NCBI GenBank assembly: GCA_903902745.1 | Contig: CAIUWA010000017.1 | Coordinates: 62,001-126,000 of the forward strand | Length of the DNA: 64,000 bases | Source of the DNA: an uncultured Opitutia bacterium | GTDB taxonomy: Bacteria; Verrucomicrobiota; Verrucomicrobiia; Opitutales; Opitutaceae | Direction: 5' to 3' | Shown: positions 465-23,270 of the stretch, one piece after another | How the letters are laid out: each line of letters begins with the position of its first letter | Position numbering within the stretch: the first letter of the stretch is position 1 | The notes under the pieces: model-generated | Databases searched by the model: none | What the model was told of the DNA's origin: nothing | What the model saw: only the letters and a program-made list of their open reading frames with translations | Made by a program: the position numbers and the translations under genes

Positions 465-2625
465 ATGTCCTCTTTCCGTTCATTTCCCTTCCTCATCCTC
501 GCAGCCGCCGTCTTCGCGCGCGGCCAGTCCGCTCCCTCTGCAGCCCCGGCCGACCCCGCCATCATGATGGATCCGGTCGACGTCAATGACCACCTCGACC
601 GTGCCCGCGAGGGCATCCAGCCGGAGCTGGGCGCCTCCTCCTTCGTCATCAACAAGCAGCAGCTGCTCGACCTGCCGCAGGGCGCGGACGCCCCTTTCAG
701 CCAGGTGCTGCTGCGCGCGCCCGGTGTCGCCGAGGACTCGGCCGCCAACGGCGACCTGCATGTCCGCGGCGAGCACGGGAACCTCCAATACCGCATCAAC
801 GATGTGATCCTGCCCGAGGGCATCACGGGATTCGGCCTCGAGCTGGATCCGCGCTTCGTGGGCAGCATGCAGCTCATCACGGGCTCGCTGCCGGCGCAGT
901 ATGGATTCCGCACCGCGGGGATCGTGGATATCCAGACGAAAAGCGGAACGCTCGACCAGGGCGGCGGATACTCCCTCTATGGCGGAAGCTTTGACACCCT
1001 TCGCCCGAGCTTCGAAGCCGGCGGCTAGGGCCGGGAAAACGAGCTATTTCATCGACGGCAGCTACGACCACAACGGCCTCGGCATCGAAAATCCGGCCGC
1101 CAGCTCCAAGGCGATCCACGACACGACTGATCAGGGCCGGCTGTTTTCCTATTTCTCCCGGCTTCTGGACAACTCCAGCCGCGTCAGCGTGATGATGAGC
1201 GCATCCGCCAGCAATTTCCAGGTCCCCAACACCCCGGGCCTCGCGGCCGGAACCTCGCCCAATGGCAATCCGTGGCTGCCGGGCACCTTCGATTCGTCGC
1301 GGCTGGACGAGAACCAGGGCGAGCGGAATTATTTCGGCGTCGTCACCTATCAGAAATCCGCGGGGACGTTGAACTACCAGGTTTCCGCCCTGGCCCGCGC
1401 GAGCAGCGTGCATTTCACCCCGGATCCCGCGGGCGATCTTTATTTCAACGGCGTGGCCAGCGATGTGGACCGCCAGCTCCGATCCGGCGGCCTGCAAGGC
1501 GACGCCAGTTACGCACTGCACGACCGGCACACGCTGCGCTTTGGCGGGATGCTGCTGGCTGAATCGGTGGCCGCCGATTCGACCACCATGGTATTTCCGG
1601 TGGACGGCGATGGGAATCCGACCGGCCCGGCCTACGCCCTGGCGGACAACCACCGGCTCCACGGCCTGTTCGCGGGGGCCTATGCGCAGGATGAATGGAA
1701 AATCTCCCCGCAGTTGACGCTCAACTACGGCGCGCGCCTTGATGTGTTCGATTCGTCCTTCGATCACGAAAACCAGCTCAGCCCGCGCGTGAACCTCCTC
1801 TATCAACCCACGGCGACAACAACGCTGCACGCCGGGTATGCGCGCTACTTCACCCCGCCGCCGGTCGAGAATGTCTCCGGCGCCACCGTCGCGAAATTCG
1901 ACGGCACATCTAACGCCTCGGCCACGAGCCAGGACGATCCGGTCCGGGCCGAGCGCTCGGATTATTTCGATGCCGGCCTCTCGCAGCGGCTCGCCCCCGG
2001 ATTCCAAGTGGGCCTGGACGGCTATTACAAGCAGGCGAAAAGCCAGCTTGATGACGGCCTGTTCGGCCAGACGCTGATCCTCTCGGCGTTCAACTACGCC
2101 GAGGGCAGGATATATGGACTGGAACTGACCGCCTCCTATGCGAACGGCGGTTTCTCGACCTACGCCAACCTCGCCCACGCCGTGGCGCAGGGCCGGAACT
2201 GGATCTCGGCGCAGTTCCTGTTCGATCCCGCCGATCTCGCCTACGTCAAGGACCACTGGATCAGTCTCGACCACGACCAAACGCTGACCGGCACCTTCGG
2301 CGCAGCCTACACCTGGAAGCAAAGCGCAGGCAGCACGCTGTGCTATCTGGATCTGCCCTACGGCAGCGGGTTGAGGAACGACGCCACGGCCGCCGACGGC
2401 TCCAACATTCCCAACGGCGGAACGGTCCCCCCCTATTATACGATCAACCTCGGCGTCGAACAGAGCTTCAAGCTGGGCCAGGGCCGCAGGTGGAAAGCAC
2501 GCCTCGACCTGGTGAATCTGGCGGACAAATCGTACCAGTTGCGCGATGGCTCCGGGGTCGGCGTCAACGCCGCGCAATACGGCATGCGCCGCGGCCTCTT
2601 CGGCTCGGTAAGCTATACGTTTTGA
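465..2625 (+). pseudogene. TonB-dependent outer-membrane receptor, interrupted by a one-base frameshift
   Basis: The first part (465-1028) encodes a signal peptide (FLILAAAVFARGQ) and a plug domain with LHVRGEHGNLQYRINDV and a GSLPAQYG motif. It stops at an in-frame TAG at 1026-1028. From 1027 the next frame continues without a break as RAGKTSYFIDGSYDHNGLG and the rest of the beta-barrel to 2625, ending in SVSYTF with the C-terminal Phe typical of outer-membrane proteins. Removing the single T at 1026 restores one reading frame of about 719 residues, normal for a TonB-dependent receptor. Such receptors import siderophores, vitamins or glycans. The neighbouring glycosidase suggests a glycan substrate, by inference. 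The frameshift could be a real mutation or a sequencing error; both halves otherwise look intact. Confidence 0.85.
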
Positions 2626-2655
2626 ATCAGGGCCACTACCACTGGCCTCTCATGC

Positions 2656-2714
2656 AAAGTAGGGCGGGGCAAAGGCACGCCCTACTTTCGCGCACCCATT
2701 TCGAAATGGGTGCG
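2656..2714. repeat. Two adjacent intergenic inverted repeats, one a perfect 24-base palindrome
   Basis: AAAGTAGGGCG pairs with CGCCCTACTTT (2656-2688). Directly after it, 2691-2714 is a perfect palindrome: CGCACCCATTTC followed by its exact reverse complement. Neither is followed by a clear T-run. They sit between the receptor and the glycosidase genes and could act as a terminator or belong to a dispersed repeat family. Confidence 0.6.
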
Positions 2715-2824
2715 TCTAGCCGGGTGAATTGGCTCGCCCTGCCCCGGACAGCCGGCGGAAATTACCCCTCCACCCCTCCGTGGCCTTGGAACAAAACTCC
2801 CCTCTCCGTCCAAACCCGCTTCCC

Positions 2825-5581
2825 ATGACCCCTCGAAAAAACCTGATTCTCGCCCTCGCCTCCACTGCGCTGTTGCTCGCCGCCCCGTTTGCCCGCGCAG
2901 ACGTCGCCCAGTTGCAACGCTCCTTCGACCGTCCGCCGGACGACGCCAAGGCCATGGTGCGCTGGTGGTGGTTCGGGCCGGCCGTGACCAAGCCCGAGCT
3001 GGAGCGCGAGATGAAGTTCATGAAGGACGGCGGATTTGGCGGCTTCGAGGTGGAACCGATTTATCCCATGGCCCTCGATGACGAGAAGACCGGCCTGAAA
3101 AACCTGCAGCTGTTGTCGCCGGAATTTTTTGACGCGCTCAAGTTTACCGCCACCACGGCCAAGGGTCTCGGCCTGCGCATGAACCTGACCCTCGGCAGCG
3201 GCTGGCCGTACGGCGGCCCGAACTTCCCCATCGCCGAGGCGGCGGGCCGCGTGCGCGTCCAGAATGTCCCCGCTGTCGCCGGCCAGCCGAGCGTGGCTGC
3301 CCCGGCGTTGCGGGAGGGCGAAAGCCTGATCGCCGCCTACGTCGGCGGGCAAAGCGGACCGAATCCTTTCCGCGAGGTGGCAATCCGCGACAATGCCGCC
3401 CAACTCCCGGCGGCCACGACGGAGGCCGCCCCGGTGCTCTTCTTCATCGCCAGCCACACCGGCATGATGGTCAAGCGCCCGGCCGTCGGCGGCGAAGGCT
3501 ATGTCATCGACAGCTACTCGGCCGCAGTCGTGGACAAGTTCATCAAGGAAATCGCCGATCCCGAGCTCAAGGCCCTCGGCGCCAACACGCCTTTCTCCGT
3601 TTTTTGCGACAGCCTCGAGGTCGCCGGCGAGGACTGGACGCCGGATTTTCTCACCGAGTTCCAGAAGCGCCGCGGCTATGACCTGCGGCCCTGGCTCCCG
3701 GCGCTGTCGAATGACATCGGGGCCAAGACCAAGGACATCCGCTATGACTGGGGCCGGACCCTCACGGAGCTGTTCAACGACCGCTTCATTGCCCCCATGC
3801 AGAAATGGTCCAAGGCGAACAACACCCGCTTCCGCATCCAGGGCTACGGCACGCCCCCGTCCGCGTTGTCCAGCTACGCCTACGCCGACCTCCCGGAAGG
3901 CGAGGGCTTCGCGTGGCGGACGTTTGCCACCTCGCGGTGGGCCTCCTCGGCCAGCCACTTGCTCGGCCGCCCAGTGACGTCCTCCGAAACGTGGACCTGG
4001 CTGCACTCGCCCATTTTCCGCGCGTCTCCGCTGGACATGAAGGCCGAGGCCGACCTGCACTTTCTCCAGGGCATCAACCAGCTCATCGCCCACGGCTGGC
4101 CCTATACGCCCGAGAGCATCGCGTATCCCGGCTGGCATCTCTACGCATCCGCCGTGTTCAACGAGAAGAACCCGTGGTGGATCGTCATGCCTGATATCAA
4201 CGCGTACCTCCAGCGCGTGAGCTACCTGCTGCGGCAGGGCCAGCCGGCCAATGATGTCGCGCTCTATCTTTCCGACAGCGATGCCTGGGCCTCCTTCGCG
4301 CCGGGTCGCGTGGCCATGAGCGCCGCCAACTCGCAGGTCATGGGCCGCGAGATTGTCGGCCTCATCCTCGAGGCTGGTTACAACCTGGATTTCATGGATG
4401 ACGGCCTGCTCGACCTGCGCGGCCGCGTCGACGGCAACACGCTGGCGTTCGGTGATACCCGCTACCGGACGGTGATCCTGCCCGGCGTCGAGCGCATCCC
4501 GCTCAAGACAATGCGCACGCTCGAGCAGTTCGCCCGCGCGGGCGGCATCGTCGTCGCCACGCGCCGCCTGCCCGCGCTCGCCCCCGGCCTGCAGACGCCC
4601 GACGCCGAGACGAAGGAGGTCAACGACATCGTCACCCGCCTCTTCAAGGCGCCCAACGCCCCCGGCATTTTCATCGAGAATGAAAGCCAGCTCGCGGCGG
4701 CGCTCGCCGCGCGCCTGAAACCCGACGTCGCCTTCAGCGCCGCCGCGCAGGAAATCGGCTTCGTGCACCGCCACACCGACGATGGCGAAGTTTACTTCCT
4801 CGCCAACACTGCCAACACCCCAAAGAGCGTGGCCGCGACCTTCCGCGTCGATGGCCTGCAACCGGAGTGGTGGGATCCGATGACCGGCCGCGTCACCGCC
4901 GCAGACGTCTCCAGCCGCGCCAGCGGCGGCACGACGGTCGCCCTCAATCTCGAGGCTTACGGCTCCCAGGTGCTGGTGTTCACGAAGCGGAAGCTGCCTG
5001 CGGAAAAGCCGGCCGCCGCCATGGCCGCCCTGCCGCCCGCGGTCGACGTGAGCAGCGGCTGGTCCGTGGCGTTCGGCAAGGACGCGAAGCCGGTGACGAT
5101 GGAAAAACTCCAGTCGTGGACGGAAAGCGAAGTGACCCGCAACTTCTCCGGCGTGGCGACGTATGAAAAATCCGTCGCGGTGCCCGCCGCGATGCTCAAG
5201 GGCGGCCTCGGCGTGCAGCTCAATTTTGGCGAGACCAAGCCGATGACACCGGGTGGCCGCGGCGGACAGCGCATGCAGGCCCTCGTCGAGGCGCCCGTGC
5301 GCGAGGCCGCCGTCGTCTATGTGAATGGCAAGCGCGCCGGCTCCGTCTGGCACCCGCCGTATGTCCTCGACGTCACCAGCCTGCTGAAGAGCGGGGACAA
5401 TGTGATCCGGGTGGAGGTCGCCAACCTCGCCCTGAACCACATGGCCGGCCATCCCCTGCCCGACTACAAGGCGCTCATCGCGAAATACGGCGACCGCTTC
5501 CAGGTGCAAGACCTCAACCAGGTCCAGCCGATCATCGCCGGCCTGCTCGGGCCGATCCAACTGGTGGCAGTCGCGAAGTAA
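2825..5581 (+). CDS. Secreted glycoside hydrolase, GH106-like (alpha-L-rhamnosidase type)
   Basis: A 918-residue exported enzyme. Residues 1-25 are a clear signal peptide (LILALASTALLLAA then ARA), which supports the ATG at 2825 over an in-frame upstream start at 2729. The mature N-terminus has the pattern typical of GH106 and relatives: WWWFGPAVTKPELE at about 47-60, then MKDGGFGGFEVEPIYPM. Later candidate catalytic-region motifs are FCDSLEVAGEDW at about 259-270 and HGWPYTPES near 422. From about residue 740 a beta-rich jelly-roll-like region ends with DVTSLLKSGDNVIRVEV. GH106 enzymes remove terminal L-rhamnose from plant polysaccharides. The exact substrate cannot be read from sequence. 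The upstream receptor suggests a small glycan-use locus. Confidence 0.75.
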   Translation: MTPRKNLILALASTALLLAAPFARADVAQLQRSFDRPPDDAKAMVRWWWFGPAVTKPELEREMKFMKDGGFGGFEVEPIYPMALDDEKTGLKNLQLLSPEFFDALKFTATTAKGLGLRMNLTLGSGWPYGGPNFPIAEAAGRVRVQNVPAVAGQPSVAAPALREGESLIAAYVGGQSGPNPFREVAIRDNAAQLPAATTEAAPVLFFIASHTGMMVKRPAVGGEGYVIDSYSAAVVDKFIKEIADPELKALGANTPFSVFCDSLEVAGEDWTPDFLTEFQKRRGYDLRPWLPALSNDIGAKTKDIRYDWGRTLTELFNDRFIAPMQKWSKANNTRFRIQGYGTPPSALSSYAYADLPEGEGFAWRTFATSRWASSASHLLGRPVTSSETWTWLHSPIFRASPLDMKAEADLHFLQGINQLIAHGWPYTPESIAYPGWHLYASAVFNEKNPWWIVMPDINAYLQRVSYLLRQGQPANDVALYLSDSDAWASFAPGRVAMSAANSQVMGREIVGLILEAGYNLDFMDDGLLDLRGRVDGNTLAFGDTRYRTVILPGVERIPLKTMRTLEQFARAGGIVVATRRLPALAPGLQTPDAETKEVNDIVTRLFKAPNAPGIFIENESQLAAALAARLKPDVAFSAAAQEIGFVHRHTDDGEVYFLANTANTPKSVAATFRVDGLQPEWWDPMTGRVTAADVSSRASGGTTVALNLEAYGSQVLVFTKRKLPAEKPAAAMAALPPAVDVSSGWSVAFGKDAKPVTMEKLQSWTESEVTRNFSGVATYEKSVAVPAAMLKGGLGVQLNFGETKPMTPGGRGGQRMQALVEAPVREAAVVYVNGKRAGSVWHPPYVLDVTSLLKSGDNVIRVEVANLALNHMAGHPLPDYKALIAKYGDRFQVQDLNQVQPIIAGLLGPIQLVAVAK

Positions 5582-18549: not shown

Positions 18550-18726
18550 CGGATGGATCCGCTCCGGGGGTTCAACCGCGTGCCGCGGAACCGGGGCCAT
18601 CGCCGGACTGGGGCGACCGCCGGCCGGTGTTCGACACCTGCAAACCGAGGAAGGCAAAGGTGCGGGAAAGCATCATGACGGGGCGTGTATAATTCGACGC
18701 AGGTGAGCGCCTTGCGGCAACCCTTT

Positions 18727-20073
18727 TTATTCGGGTTCGGCCGTGCCCTCGACCACCCATTCCCGCGCCTCGGGCACCTGCATGAGAAACGCGCGCAGGG
18801 CGGCGCTCAGGTGCTCGGCATAACGGAAATGCGCGCCCATCCCGGTGCGGAGTTCCGCCTCGTAGATGAACTTGTCGGCGTGCGTGCTGTGCTCGAAGGG
18901 CGTCTGGGCGCCCAGCAGCAGCGAATAAACATAGGCCGGCGAGCCACGCTGCAGGAGTTCCCGAGTGAGGGCTGCCTGCTCGGCGAGCAAGGCCGCGTGG
19001 GGGGTGGCCGGAATCTCCGGCGGGAGATAAAAGCCGGCCTGGATCAGCGGCGTGTAACGATGGCCCGTACGATGGCGGTTGAGGTCGCGGAGTTCGGCCA
19101 GCGCCATGTTATTCCAGGCAAAGCTCACGCGCATGCGGCGCGTCGCCGAGCCCTGGTGCCCGTAGCGGTTCGTGCGGTGGCGGAGCGCCTCGGCGATCGG
19201 CTGCGTCTCGGCCAGCCATGGCGGGGTGGCGCGGTCAGCCTGCACCCAGACTTCGTCGGCCAGCGGCGCAGTGGAAAGCCGGGCCAGCCCGAGCTTGATG
19301 CTCGTGGCGAGTTCCTGCGCGGCCTGCGCCTCGAAGGATTTCTCCGCGAAGCTATGCCGCATCAGCCGCGGCGACTGCTTGAGGAGTTCCTCCCGGATCA
19401 GCCTCGCGGCGGCCTTGGCCTCCAGCTGCGGCAGCGAGTCGAGGTGCTTGACCGTCGTGGCCCACATGCGCGAGGACTGGACGAGGCCGAGGTTGGTGCG
19501 CGTGGCGAATGGGATGAAGTAGCGCGCGCGGTCGAGGGCGTAGTTTTTGCGCAGACGGGTGACGACGGCGGGTTTCGCATCGGGCGGCAGGCGCACGAGG
19601 CCGGGCTGCGCGGTGGCGAGGGCGTCGAGCCGCGCATACTCGGTATGGTAGGCGGCGAAGGCCTTGGCCATGAGGGCCGACCAGCGCGGCGCCAGGTCGT
19701 CGGGGATGCCGAGCTCGGCGGCGGTGGGCAGGTTCGACGCATCCATCGTGATGTAGCGCGTGCTCGACTCCTGTCCGTCGGCCATCGTGGCGATCTCGAA
19801 AATTTTGTACGCGAGCCACATCGAGACATCATCGAGCGCGACCGCGAGCCCGCCCGTGAGGCCGCCGATGGAGGCGTGGCCGTAGTCGACGAACTTCAGG
19901 ATGCGGTCGATGGACGCGTCCGGGTTCGCGAGGTCGACCTTCTCCAGGATCTTGTGGATGCCCTCATTGCTGCGCGAGTAGCGCGCAAGGACGGAGGCGA
20001 GCAGCTCGGGCGTGACCTTGGGCAGATCGGCGGCGGTCGGCGGCGGGACAAGGGCGAGTCCGGTGATTCTCAT
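18727..20073 (-). CDS. Double-length ThyX-like protein (FAD-dependent thymidylate synthase fold)
   Basis: 448 residues, about twice a normal ThyX (220-250). The N-terminal half carries FVDYGHASIGGL at 61-72 and GQESSTRY at 100-107, matching the end of the ThyX signature RHRxxSxNExSxRY, but the RHR part reads IAT. The C-terminal half carries LNRHRTGHRYTP near 330-341, which keeps RHR but lacks the SxNE part, and later PFEHSTHADKF. Each half therefore keeps a different piece of the FAD/dUMP-binding signature. It may be a divergent methylating flavoprotein or a true thymidylate synthase of unusual build. No folate gene lies nearby. Confidence 0.7.
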   Translation of the reverse strand: MRITGLALVPPPTAADLPKVTPELLASVLARYSRSNEGIHKILEKVDLANPDASIDRILKFVDYGHASIGGLTGGLAVALDDVSMWLAYKIFEIATMADGQESSTRYITMDASNLPTAAELGIPDDLAPRWSALMAKAFAAYHTEYARLDALATAQPGLVRLPPDAKPAVVTRLRKNYALDRARYFIPFATRTNLGLVQSSRMWATTVKHLDSLPQLEAKAAARLIREELLKQSPRLMRHSFAEKSFEAQAAQELATSIKLGLARLSTAPLADEVWVQADRATPPWLAETQPIAEALRHRTNRYGHQGSATRRMRVSFAWNNMALAELRDLNRHRTGHRYTPLIQAGFYLPPEIPATPHAALLAEQAALTRELLQRGSPAYVYSLLLGAQTPFEHSTHADKFIYEAELRTGMGAHFRYAEHLSAALRAFLMQVPEAREWVVEGTAEPE

Positions 20074-20156
20074 GCGTGAGCGGAAAAGGTGTCACGCAAA
20101 GGCGCCGGCTCGCCAAGCCTGAAGCGGAATATCTTTGCGGACGGCTCGGTATCTCC

Positions 20157-20201
20157 CCGTCGGAGCCTGCTTGCAGAGTCCTACAACAGCAGGCCGTCGA
20201 C
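20157..20201. repeat. Fragment of a CCTGCTTGCAG dispersed element
   Basis: CGGAGCCTGCTTGCAGAGTC here matches one arm of the inverted repeat at 60036-60119 (GAGCCTGCTTGC / GCAAGCAGGCTC). It fills part of the spacer between the nuoN stop and the ThyX-like gene. Confidence 0.4.
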
Positions 20202-21725
20202 TCAATGCGCGAGAACCCACTGGCCGAACGCGCCCGGGTAGAAGCCGAGCAGCACGGAACTCACGGCCAGGACGATGAGGGCGACCCGGACCCAGCCAGC
20301 CACCGGGGTGCAGACCCGCGTCGCGACCGGCGCAGGTTCGCCGCCCGAGGGGAGCGAGGACGGGAAGAACGCGGCCTTGATCCAGCCGAAGTAATAATAA
20401 ATCGAGATGACCACCCCTCCGACCGCGATCGCCAGCAGCGGATAGAGGCCGGCCTTGAAGGCGGCGACGAAGATGAGCAGTTTGCCCATGAAACCCGCCA
20501 GCGGCGGGATGCCCGCCAGGGAGCCGAGGCCAATGGCGAGGATCGCGGCCAGGAACGGCTGCTCCTTGGCGAGGTTGGCATAGTGGTCGAGTTCCTGGTC
20601 GGCGTCGTTGCTGCCCGCGACGTGCGCCATGACGCCGAACACGGCAAAGGAAGCCAGCAGGTAGGCGGAGAGGTAGAACCAAATCGCACCGACCGCGAGC
20701 GGCTCCCGATAGGCCGCGATCACACCAATCATCAGGTAGCCGGCGTGCGAGATGCCGGAAAGGCCGATGAGGCGCTTCACATTGTGCTGGGTCAGGGCCG
20801 CGAGATTGCCGAACAGGATCGTGGCGCCCGCCATCACCGCGAGCACGGGAATGACGAGGTTCTGGTAGGGCGTGAAGACCCGCTGCGTGAGAATGAGGAG
20901 CACGGCGAAGCCGGCGGCCTTCGAGGCGACGGCGAGGAACGCCGTCACGGGTGTCGGCGCCCCCTGGTAGACATCGGGGATCCAGATCTGGAACGGCACG
21001 GCGCCAATCTTGAAGGCTACGCCGGCCAGCACCAAGACGATGCCAACGCTGGCGAGGAAATTGCCGGGATTGGCCTCAAGGAACCCGCGGAGCTGGTCGA
21101 AGTTCATCGAGTCCGCCGAGCCGCCCGGCAGCCCGCGGTTGCCGGCCACGCCGTAGAGCAGGACGATGCCGAAGAGCAGCAGCGACGAGCTGAGCGCGCC
21201 CATGACCAGGTACTTGAGGCCGGCCTCGAGCGACAGCGGGCTCTCGCGGAAATAACTCACGAGGATGTAGAAGCCCACGGTGACGGTCTCGAGCGCCACG
21301 AAAAACATCACGAAGTGGTTGGACTGCGCGAGGAGCATCATCGCCGCGGTGATGACGAGCACCAGATGGTAGAACTCGACGCGCGGCATGCGCTGCTTGG
21401 CGAGGCTCACGGTGCCGAGCAGGCAGACGAAGATCGAGCAGACGAGGAAGAACAGCCGCAGGAACTGCCCGTCGGCGGACAGGCGCAGCAGGCCGTTGAA
21501 GACCGTGTCCGTCCCGCTGAAGGCGGTGTTGAAATTGAGCGCGAGGCTGACCGCGATCACGACCTGGATGACGATGGCGGCGACCGGGATGAGCCCATGC
21601 TTCGCCTTCGGCAGGATGAGCTCGAGCACGAGCAGCAGCAGCGCGGTGAGACCGAGCATCAGCTCGGGGGTGATGGCCAGCCATTCGTTGTTGGCGGCGG
21701 CCTGCTGGAGGAGTTCGATGGGCAT
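20202..21725 (-). CDS. nuoN: NADH-quinone oxidoreductase subunit N
   Basis: A 507-residue antiporter-like membrane subunit of complex I, part of the proton-pumping arm. About fourteen hydrophobic segments are visible. Typical motifs are KYLVMGALSSSLLLFGIVLLYG, here seen as YLVMGALSSSLLLFG near residues 168-182, and GAVPFQIWIPDVYQGAPTP in the middle. It is the last gene of the nuoB-N operon, 15 bases after nuoM. Length and order match the usual arrangement. Confidence 0.96.
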   Translation of the reverse strand: MPIELLQQAAANNEWLAITPELMLGLTALLLLVLELILPKAKHGLIPVAAIVIQVVIAVSLALNFNTAFSGTDTVFNGLLRLSADGQFLRLFFLVCSIFVCLLGTVSLAKQRMPRVEFYHLVLVITAAMMLLAQSNHFVMFFVALETVTVGFYILVSYFRESPLSLEAGLKYLVMGALSSSLLLFGIVLLYGVAGNRGLPGGSADSMNFDQLRGFLEANPGNFLASVGIVLVLAGVAFKIGAVPFQIWIPDVYQGAPTPVTAFLAVASKAAGFAVLLILTQRVFTPYQNLVIPVLAVMAGATILFGNLAALTQHNVKRLIGLSGISHAGYLMIGVIAAYREPLAVGAIWFYLSAYLLASFAVFGVMAHVAGSNDADQELDHYANLAKEQPFLAAILAIGLGSLAGIPPLAGFMGKLLIFVAAFKAGLYPLLAIAVGGVVISIYYYFGWIKAAFFPSSLPSGGEPAPVATRVCTPVAGWVRVALIVLAVSSVLLGFYPGAFGQWVLAH

Positions 21726-21740
21726 GGCGGCGAACGGCGG

Positions 21741-23270
21741 TTAGCGGCCGGCGGTGAGGCGCGGCGCGTCCAGCATGCGGAAGGAGGCGGCGAGCGTGGA
21801 GTTGAGCGGCGTGGAAAGCGACTTCGGCCAGAAGCCGACGAAAAGCAGCGCGGCGAGCAGGATGAGCGCCGGGATTTTTTCGCGCCAGGAGAGGTCGGCG
21901 GGCGGATGCGCCGCAGTGACCTTGTCCAGCGCCTCCGTGGGCGGGCCGAAGAACACGGCGGCCACCGAGCGGAGCCCGTAAATGGCCGAGATGACCACGC
22001 CGGCCACGGCCGCGACGGTCATCCAGGGCGAGAAGTGCCAGAGGGCGACGAAGATTGTCAGCTCGCCCCAGAAGTTCGCGAAGCCAGGCAGGCCGATGCC
22101 CGCCAGTGTCGCCGCGACAAAGAAGGCCGCGAGCACGGGCGTCTTTTGCGCGAGGCCGCCCATCTGCGTCATGTCGAGCGTGTGCGTGCGCTGGTGGATG
22201 CTCGTCGCGAGCAGGAAGAGCAGCGCCACGGACAGTCCGTGCGCCACCATGAGCAGGACGACGCCGCCGACGCCAAGGACCGAGAAGCACGCGATGCCGA
22301 GGAAGGCATAGCCCATGTGCATCACCGAGCTGTAACCGAGCATCTGCTTGAGATCGCGCTGGGCGATGGCGATGAGCCCGACGACCAGCACGTTGCCGAG
22401 CGCAAGGTACGCGAGCAGGCGGGCCCAGTCCTTCGCTCCCTCAGGCAGAAGCGGCAGCGCGACCTGGATGAGGCCGTAGAGGCCGAATTTCTTGAGTACG
22501 CCGGCGTGGAGCATCGCCGCCGAGCTGGGCGCAGCGCCGTAGCCGAGCGGGGCCCAGGTGTGGAATGGCCAGAGGGAAACGAGGATGCCGAAGCCGAACA
22601 TCAGCAGGCCGAAGATGTGCTTCTGCGTGGTCGCGCCGATCGGCTCGGCGGCTAGCGCCTCGCGCAGCATGATCAGGTCAAAGGTCTGGCCGCTGTGGCC
22701 GCTCTTCACGTAGATCGCGATGAGGCCGATGAGCGACAGCATCGCGCCCGCGGTGAGATAGATCGTCATCTTCATCGCCGCGTAATTGCGGTCCCGGCCG
22801 CCCCAGATGCCGACCATGATGAACGTCGGGATCAGCGCCAGCTCGTGGAAGAAGTAGAAGAAAAACACGTCGACGCTCGCGAACACGCCCATCAAGCCGC
22901 CCTGCATGAACAGCAGGAGCATGAGGTAGATCTTCAGGCGCTCGGCGTTGGACTGGATCGCGTACAGCCCGGCCGCGAGGCCTACGAGGCCGGCGAGCAC
23001 GAACAGCGGCAGCGCGACGCCATTGAGGCCCAGCGCGAGCGTGATGCCAAAGCTGTCGAGTCCCGTGGAGTAGCGGGTGAAGAACGCGTACTTCGCACCG
23101 GCGTCCGCCGGGAAATTCATCCAAGCCCAGAGCGCGATGATCGCTGGCACGCCGAAGCCGACGTAGGCCAGCTTGATCGAGTGGCGCTTCGGCAGCCCGA
23201 GCAGGATGGCAACGGCCACGGCGAGCGGCGTCGCGATGGCCAGAAGCAGAGGATCGAAGTGAAAGTTCAT
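21741..23270 (-). CDS. nuoM: NADH-quinone oxidoreductase subunit M
   Basis: A 509-residue antiporter-like subunit of complex I. Typical features are a conserved LFFMQGGLMGVFAS-like stretch, FFFYFFHELALIPTF with the key Glu, and PFHTWAPLGYGAAPSSAAM followed by LHAGVLKKFGLYGL. The ATG at 23270 (MNFHFDPLLLA) is preferred over an upstream in-frame start because it lies seven bases after the nuoL stop. It sits between nuoL and nuoN. Confidence 0.96.
   Translation of the reverse strand: MNFHFDPLLLAIATPLAVAVAILLGLPKRHSIKLAYVGFGVPAIIALWAWMNFPADAGAKYAFFTRYSTGLDSFGITLALGLNGVALPLFVLAGLVGLAAGLYAIQSNAERLKIYLMLLLFMQGGLMGVFASVDVFFFYFFHELALIPTFIMVGIWGGRDRNYAAMKMTIYLTAGAMLSLIGLIAIYVKSGHSGQTFDLIMLREALAAEPIGATTQKHIFGLLMFGFGILVSLWPFHTWAPLGYGAAPSSAAMLHAGVLKKFGLYGLIQVALPLLPEGAKDWARLLAYLALGNVLVVGLIAIAQRDLKQMLGYSSVMHMGYAFLGIACFSVLGVGGVVLLMVAHGLSVALLFLLATSIHQRTHTLDMTQMGGLAQKTPVLAAFFVAATLAGIGLPGFANFWGELTIFVALWHFSPWMTVAAVAGVVISAIYGLRSVAAVFFGPPTEALDKVTAAHPPADLSWREKIPALILLAALLFVGFWPKSLSTPLNSTLAASFRMLDAPRLTAGR

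Follow-up and report, generated by a model that had tools for sequence, protein, structure and literature searches.

A double ThyX protein of Opitutaceae and phages with flavin-dependent thymidylate synthase residues divided between its two halves

We analysed a 64,000-nucleotide stretch of DNA (hereafter the window) from an uncultured Opitutia bacterium, and describe in it a gene for a double ThyX protein. This protein is best explained as a flavin-dependent thymidylate synthase made of two complementarily degenerate ThyX domains, which would work as a homodimer with composite active sites. We consider this reading likely.

Results

A double ThyX gene in the window

From an ATG start, the minus-strand gene at positions 18727-20073 codes for 448 amino acids plus a stop codon. 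Pfam Thy1 (PF02511) covers residues 22-235 in the N half (E 2.3e-13; 50.8 bits against a cut-off of 24.8) and is weak over the C half, where the genome search gave 16 bits and E 0.0139, below the cut-off. Thy1 is the only Pfam family matching the protein at E ≤ 10, so that no match to PF00303 (ThyA) was obtained. Against the NCBIfam thyX equivalog model TIGR02170, the protein scores 13.5 bits and falls short of the cut-off of 87.9. The features of the gene and its upstream neighbour are as follows (window positions, with residues in brackets):

18727..20073, minus strand: tandem (double) ThyX gene, from Pfam Thy1 and AF2 models
19339..20073, minus strand: N half (1-245), predicted ThyX fold, from VIA-align to Mycobacterium tuberculosis (Mtb) ThyX 2af6_G
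19969..19977, minus strand: SRS (33-35), likely equivalent of T. maritima S30, judged from sequence
19870..19884, minus strand: YGHAS (64-68), with H66 as the putative equivalent of H53 and S68 as that of Mtb S71 (B-subunit residues)
19753..19776, minus strand: GQESSTRY (100-107), equivalents of N85, E86, S88, R90 and Y91 (C-subunit residues), aligning with the canonical motif
19510..19533, minus strand: DRARYFIP (181-188), with R184 as the equivalent of R147
19468..19470, minus strand: R202, which probably corresponds to B-subunit residue R190 of Mtb, as judged by its distance of nine residues to the R174 position
19270..19338, minus strand: linker helix region (246-268), with a helix at 245-265 in the AF2 model
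18730..19269, minus strand: C half (269-448), predicted ThyX fold, from VIA-align to T. maritima ThyX 3g4c_D
19174..19182, minus strand: second RHR triplet (298-300), not the conserved motif
19069..19077, minus strand: RHR (333-335), equivalents of R78, H79 and R80 (A-subunit motif)
18847..18855, minus strand: ELR (407-409), with R409 as the equivalent of R174 (Mtb R199; A-subunit residue), aligning with canonical LR
18829..18831, minus strand: H415, nearly invariant in tandem ThyX (44 of 45)
20202..21725, minus strand: NuoN-like (complex I) gene, upstream neighbour on the same strand

In the set of 45 non-redundant tandem proteins described below, the first serine and the arginine of SRS are each kept in 43 and P188 in all 45. 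In the C half, ELR is part of ELRTGMGAH (residues 407-415).

In a contiguous ThyX motif, RHR and SxRY belong to one domain, with SxRY coming no more than about 13 residues after RHR. Both elements are present in the window protein, in different halves: located by coordinate, GQESSTRY has no RHR at the corresponding N-half position and the C-half RHR is followed by no S-x-R-Y. The first-pass annotation had described a double ThyX-like protein whose N half keeps ESSTRY without RHR, and both points hold. Its description of the C half, as keeping RHR without SxNE, stands with one correction, namely the additional RHR at 298-300. Because an RHR preceding the conserved one is found in just two of the 45 tandems (the window protein and L137), 333-335 and not 298-300 is the motif.

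The upstream neighbour, which we take to be NuoN, recurs: among 80 tandem loci, 68 have at least 1.7 kb of upstream sequence and 53 of these carry a NuoN-like gene there. Long open reading frames also run on the plus strand opposite the ThyX gene (18685-20079, 464 amino acids) and its upstream neighbours (20076-22655, 859 amino acids); both look like GC-rich shadow frames.

Both halves are predicted to have the ThyX fold

The AF2 model used here was built on 44 tandem sequences (mean pLDDT 91.0, pTM 0.88). It replaced an earlier model from 27 less diverse sequences, whose pLDDT was a middling 76.2. Using VIA-align, residues 1-245 superpose on M. tuberculosis ThyX 2af6_G with Z 11.7 and rmsd 3.4 over 200 aligned positions, and residues 271-445 on T. 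maritima ThyX 3g4c_D with Z 12.5 and rmsd 2.8 over 164 positions. Rows of the comparison that are not ThyX-like reached Z 4.2 at most. In this single-chain model, then, each half has the ThyX fold; a model lacking that fold in one of the halves would have spoken against the first-pass annotation.

In a viral structure library, the whole model matches viral protein A0A6B7EUB9 (TM 0.73/0.71, 460 columns, rmsd 4.7) and the thymidylate synthase of Microcystis phage Ma-LMM01 (TM 0.65/0.60, 488 columns, rmsd 10.6). Because these matches span the whole length, the arrangement of the two halves appears, by the models, to be at least roughly conserved between distant tandems.

A PDB sequence search with the whole protein and with each half returned no significant ThyX, whereas the fold comparison did find ThyX; the N-half profile reached a viral ThyX in the PDB only at E 1.1, and the C-half profile had no PDB match at E ≤ 10. 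Comparing the two halves with each other by hhalign gave no sequence similarity. A profile comparison with 30 single ThyX proteins (N half 92.2%, E 7.8e-8; C half 55.6%, E 1.7e-5) weakly supports the assignment of both halves, and pairs GQESSTRY with canonical NE-S-RY, RHR with RHR and ELR with LR.

Active-site residues are divided over the two halves

According to the available text of PMC6514825, one active site of Mtb ThyX is formed by three subunits: subunit A provides RHR 95-97 and R199, subunit B provides S71 and R190 towards FAD, and subunit C provides R87, the backbone of Q103, S105, R107 and Y108. As excerpted, PMC11940539 places H53 on monomer 3, in contact with Y91 and N85, and PMC8316439 assigns dUMP activation to R174 (= R199) and assistance in methylene transfer to S88, R90 and Y91. 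We matched the two numberings by motif and spacing, which would put S71 two residues after H53 and R190 nine residues before R174.

Opitutales, viral contigs, and phage and plasmid records supplied the tandem proteins; 70 of the tandem loci were collected using GQE[SRC]STRY as the sole pattern. Dropping rows at least 70% identical to a kept row reduced 138 rows to 45; 15 Opitutales rows, picked from about 100, were entered before this reduction. Four loci were left out, as the same gene as L179 (L148), a single ThyX (L151 and L153) or a partial one (L216). The 45 rows comprise two Opitutales, one other Verrucomicrobiota (G059), six phage, three plasmid records and 33 viral contigs, and their median pairwise identity is 22%.

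Across this set, conservation of the active-site residues is complementary. The A-subunit residues lie in the C half, where RHR and the R174 equivalent are both present in 45 of 45. At the N-half positions, R78 is found in one, H79 in seven and R80 in three of the 45, and none of the 45 has an RHR within 25 residues upstream of the N-half motif. The N-half R174 position (residue 211) is never arginine; at residue 210, the other possible alignment, arginine occurs in 8 of 45. Conversely, the C-subunit residues lie in the N half (E86 in 44, S88, R90 and Y or F91 each in all 45), and the C-half positions of E86, S88, R90 and Y91 keep them in 1, 0, 1 and 1 of the 45. In the roughly 40 residues that follow the C-half RHR, no tandem has S.R[YF], so that the contiguous ThyX motif is absent throughout. 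The mapped B-subunit residues are again in the N half: the S71 equivalent (S or T) in all 45, H53 in 42 and R190, the weakest-kept of the mapped residues (R202 in the window protein), in 32. The N-half R147 equivalent (R184) is present in 44 of 45.

Of the 45 rows, 26 were found by GQE[SRC]STRY and four more by the N-half patterns FVDYGHA or DGQESSTR; the way these 30 were selected partly fixes their N-half counts but not their C-half counts. The 15 rows not selected on an N-half motif show the same split. Taken together, C-half RHR and R174 accompany N-half S88 and R90 in 26/26 rows found by GQE[SRC]STRY and in 19/19 others (4 + 15).

A proposed two-chain model of the active site

We propose that an old duplication gave two ThyX domains, which then degenerated in complementary ways. 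The C half would act as subunit A, binding FAD and the dUMP uracil through RHR and R409. The N half would act both as subunit B, through S68 and H66, and as subunit C, in which E102, S104, R106, Y107 and probably R184 would bind dUMP and assist methylene transfer. Since the three roles fall to different subunits in the tetramer, a site would have to bring a C half together with two N halves, which predicts a homodimer (a pseudo-tetramer N2C2) with two live sites, each drawn from both chains, and two dead ones. With A always a C half and B and C always N halves, the two axes through A would relate N to C and the third would relate N to N. This argument assumes that the four domains assemble with ThyX-like 222 symmetry, under which the two-chain assignment is self-consistent: two sites would each combine a C half with the two N halves, while the remaining two would be devoid of the mapped residues.

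The first-pass annotation had suggested, as one possibility, that the two fused halves jointly build one active site, each contributing part of it. The complementary retention of residues, the fold of both halves and the lack of another ThyA or ThyX (see below) favour that suggestion, and the residue mapping would refine it from two halves sharing a site to three (one C and two N) contributed by two chains.

A working thymidylate synthase could also be organised differently: a single chain might form the site from its own N and C half, or all four sites might be weakly active. Conservation is loosest among the B-subunit residues (R190 in 32/45, H53 in 42/45), so that A plus C might suffice for a site. 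Against such an organisation, the N-half S71 equivalent is S or T in 45/45, and canonical S71 comes from a third subunit (PMC6514825, available text); the C-subunit residues are lost from their C-half positions in 44 or 45 of 45. We regard this organisation as unlikely.

The tandem gene probably replaces ThyA among relatives

The genome from which the window derives is 98.18% complete, and the tandem gene is its sole Thy1 (PF02511) locus. No match to PF00303 was found in it at E ≤ 10 and none to thymidine kinase at E ≤ 0.001. The check for another thyA or thyX, proposed along with the first annotation, thus found none by PF02511 and PF00303 searches.

Among 57 relatives, 32 carry the tandem gene, 22 carry ThyA (21 as a full-length gene in one frame, G049 in two overlapping frames), none carries both and three carry neither. 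The latter are G029, G034 and G050, with completeness of 84, 83 and 64%. When only relatives at least 90% complete are counted, 26 have the tandem, 18 have ThyA, and none has both or neither, the pattern of one gene replacing the other. Because no relative combines the tandem with full-length ThyA, and the window genome has no other Thy1, ThyA or thymidine kinase, the tandem protein is very probably, on this sequence evidence, the thymidylate synthase of the window genome.

Partial PF00303 matches above the cut-off do occur in three tandem genomes (G005, E 5.8e-9; G008, E 9.9e-10; G169, E 4.1e-19) and count against perfect exclusion. In G005 the matching protein is a ThyA relative of 295 amino acids. 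Proteins of this kind, about 295 amino acids long, with PPCLQ and a weak PF00303 match, and distinct from ThyA, were seen in G005 (L124), G008 (L123) and G012 (L125), the last of which has ThyA as well.

In a wider sample of 145 Verrucomicrobiota, 15 genomes have the tandem, 50 have full-length ThyA and 67 have another Thy1 above the cut-off, with no overlap; 13 have none of these. A sixteenth tandem match, in G059, is weak and is counted among the 67.

ThyA makes dihydrofolate and needs dihydrofolate reductase (DHFR), while ThyX does not (PMC6514825, available text). With strong DHFR defined as E at or below 2e-30, all 18 ThyA genomes at least 90% complete have one versus 12 of the 26 tandem genomes, the window genome among the 12 (Fisher p 1.4e-4, a test that ignores phylogeny). 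Over all 32 tandem genomes, DHFR is strong in 16 (window genome included), weak only in three and missing from 13; with strong DHFR in 16/32, DHFR absence was rejected as a clean marker of the tandem. Thymidine kinase matches are absent from 17 of the 26 tandem genomes (window genome included) and also from 14 of the 18 ThyA genomes, so that their absence itself is no tandem marker either. Ten of the 26 tandem genomes have no match to ThyA, DHFR or thymidine kinase.

Both halves of the tandem are under similar purifying selection: pN/pS is 0.11-0.22 over 13 loci chosen from 80 and is similar in the two halves. Near two homologues, further nucleotide genes were seen, a dCMP deaminase gene adjoining the copy in phage Tunturi_5 and a dCTP deaminase gene near the Euzebya copy. 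Both enzymes supply dUMP.

The first-pass annotation had offered, as its alternative, a flavoprotein with a new substrate. A protein of ThyX fold might methylate UMP, as PolB does, or act on a modified phage pyrimidine. PolB (4p5a) and the atypical ThyX of C. glutamicum have the ThyX fold and, by their PDB titles, other roles; the PolB-type UMP/dUMP methylase acts on UMP. PolB also shares its fold with the tandem (Z 10.6), so that fold does not discriminate, and 39 of the 45 tandems come from phage records or viral contigs, in part an effect of the databases searched. Another substrate is nevertheless disfavoured because genomes with the tandem are without full-length ThyA. This holds for 26/26 tandem genomes at least 90% complete (G005 and G008 having a partial ThyA relative), and 10 of these 26 are also without thymidine kinase and DHFR matches. 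Moreover, the equivalents of R174, S88, R90 and Y91, which act on dUMP and flavin in the available text of PMC8316439, are all present. We find this alternative very unlikely.

A dead or regulatory paralogue, with dTMP coming from an unrecognised enzyme or from salvage, is extremely unlikely given purifying selection in both halves and a window genome without PF00303 (E ≤ 10) or thymidine kinase (E ≤ 0.001) matches, even though some residues that matter in canonical ThyX are missing from either half taken by itself, G005 has the PPCLQ protein besides its tandem and the known enzymes are all absent from 13 of the 145 Verrucomicrobiota in the sample.

Distribution in bacteria and phages

Scanning genome contigs gave 234 relatives, of which the best 80 were kept; these are labelled as Opitutae-type bacteria or unspecified Verrucomicrobia, at 80-91% identity. 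In a tree of 51 rows computed by a quick method, Opitutales form one side of a branch (SH-aLRT 99), which lies inside a set with nine viral rows (98) and, beyond it, a larger viral set. Among five viral loci with picked open reading frames, L184 has a T4-like RNase H and clamp loader near the tandem, so this locus at least looks like phage. These observations support a phage gene captured by Opitutales, in a sample that is lopsided for the direction of transfer, as cellular homologues outside Verrucomicrobiota were reached via plasmids only. A tree of the separate halves places N halves in one group (90) and C halves in another (88), with long branches and by the same kind of quick method, and would fit one duplication.

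Other genes were noted near viral tandem ThyX genes: an RtcB RNA ligase with an intein splicing domain (6650-9037 of L126, from a 210-kb viral contig) and a chaperonin Cpn60-like gene (6247-7266 of L276, from a 358-kb viral contig). A viral scan with the Tunturi_5 protein as query returned no contig. In Vibrio mediterranei phages, two listed features had suggested a split gene; this was rejected, since the record holds one open reading frame (2501-3886 of the locus), which overlaps its neighbour by one base.

Relation to known ThyX proteins

Each half of the tandem is alike in fold to canonical ThyX (PF02511; TM0449 and Mtb ThyX), and the mapped FAD, dUMP and catalytic residues of the latter are all found in the tandem protein. 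The difference lies in their placement. Canonical ThyX has both motifs in one chain, as do the open reading frames at 30/30 single-ThyX loci examined (which were found by that pattern), whereas the tandem shares the residues out between two fused domains, each degenerate where the other is not. The canonical enzyme is a homotetramer whose four sites are identical (PMC6514825, available text), whereas the tandem is predicted to be a dimer with two. By fold, residues and genomic context, the sequence suggests that the tandem should work like ThyX, while it lacks the contiguous motif and scores below the NCBIfam cut-off.

A ThyX with a domain duplication was reported in 2009 from Chloroflexi as uncharacterised (PMC3224940). 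As far as its available text goes, this report gives no residue analysis and does not mention Opitutaceae or phages, and the two proteins are compared here by description only. It was also the only mention of a duplicated ThyX in our literature search, which covered few subscription papers and met no description of a divided ThyX site.

The Ma-LMM01 thymidylate synthase (491 amino acids) has the same double architecture, the same split and a fold match over its whole length; it differs in being a phage gene and has 21% identity over the structural alignment (rmsd 10.6). PHROG 36506 (length 491) is probably the family of this protein, and both PHROG 36506 and record annotations call double proteins thymidylate synthase. 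Double proteins encoded on plasmids of Miltoncostaea oceani, Euzebya pacifica and Parabacteroides distasonis, which carry the annotation FAD-dependent thymidylate synthase, show the same split with LEQSTRY or LEKSTRY in place of GQESSTRY. The Miltoncostaea protein has D instead of the H53 equivalent, as do 3 of the 45 rows in all.

Other ThyX variants were seen in passing. L179 (G059, contig 20) encodes another double ThyX of about 530 amino acids that is nearer to canonical ThyX (Thy1 190.7 bits) and whose N half carries SEQVSQRY and whose C half carries RHR; judged from sequence, it may be of the Chloroflexi type. L149, L150 and L152 (in G074, G062 and G107) encode a single ThyX of about 520 amino acids with a C-terminal 3'-5' exonuclease domain, supported by Pfam in L149 (PF02511 at 26-225; PF01612 at 346-510, E 3e-24) and judged by eye in L150 and L152. 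Finally, L180 (G121) and L181 (G145), from two of the 67 genomes with another Thy1 protein, are divergent ThyX-like open reading frames of about 305 amino acids in which HRLFSRNASSSRA replaces the usual motif; neither genome has a PF00303 match.

Discussion

The findings can be joined into a history to which we give an even chance: a single old duplication would have produced a symmetry-broken ThyX whose dimers build each working site from a C half and the N halves of both chains and keep two fossil sites. This ThyX would have diversified in large phages, and in a forerunner of the Opitutaceae a phage copy would have taken the place of the essential bacterial thyA, with frequent loss of DHFR afterwards.

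In canonical ThyX, a site is made from three identical subunits, which makes subunit roles and the effect of residue changes in a single copy hard to study. The natural two-domain form would separate these roles, with flavin and uracil holding on one side and the dUMP and catalytic residues on the other. If our reading is correct, the mechanism of an essential enzyme and drug target would become accessible to genetics, and complementary degeneration within a single active site would gain a clear example. The tandem gene also shows why a curated family model misses such ThyX proteins (13.5 versus 87.9 bits). For the bacteria themselves, it would mean that a seemingly phage-type enzyme is the thymidylate synthase of a bacterial family.
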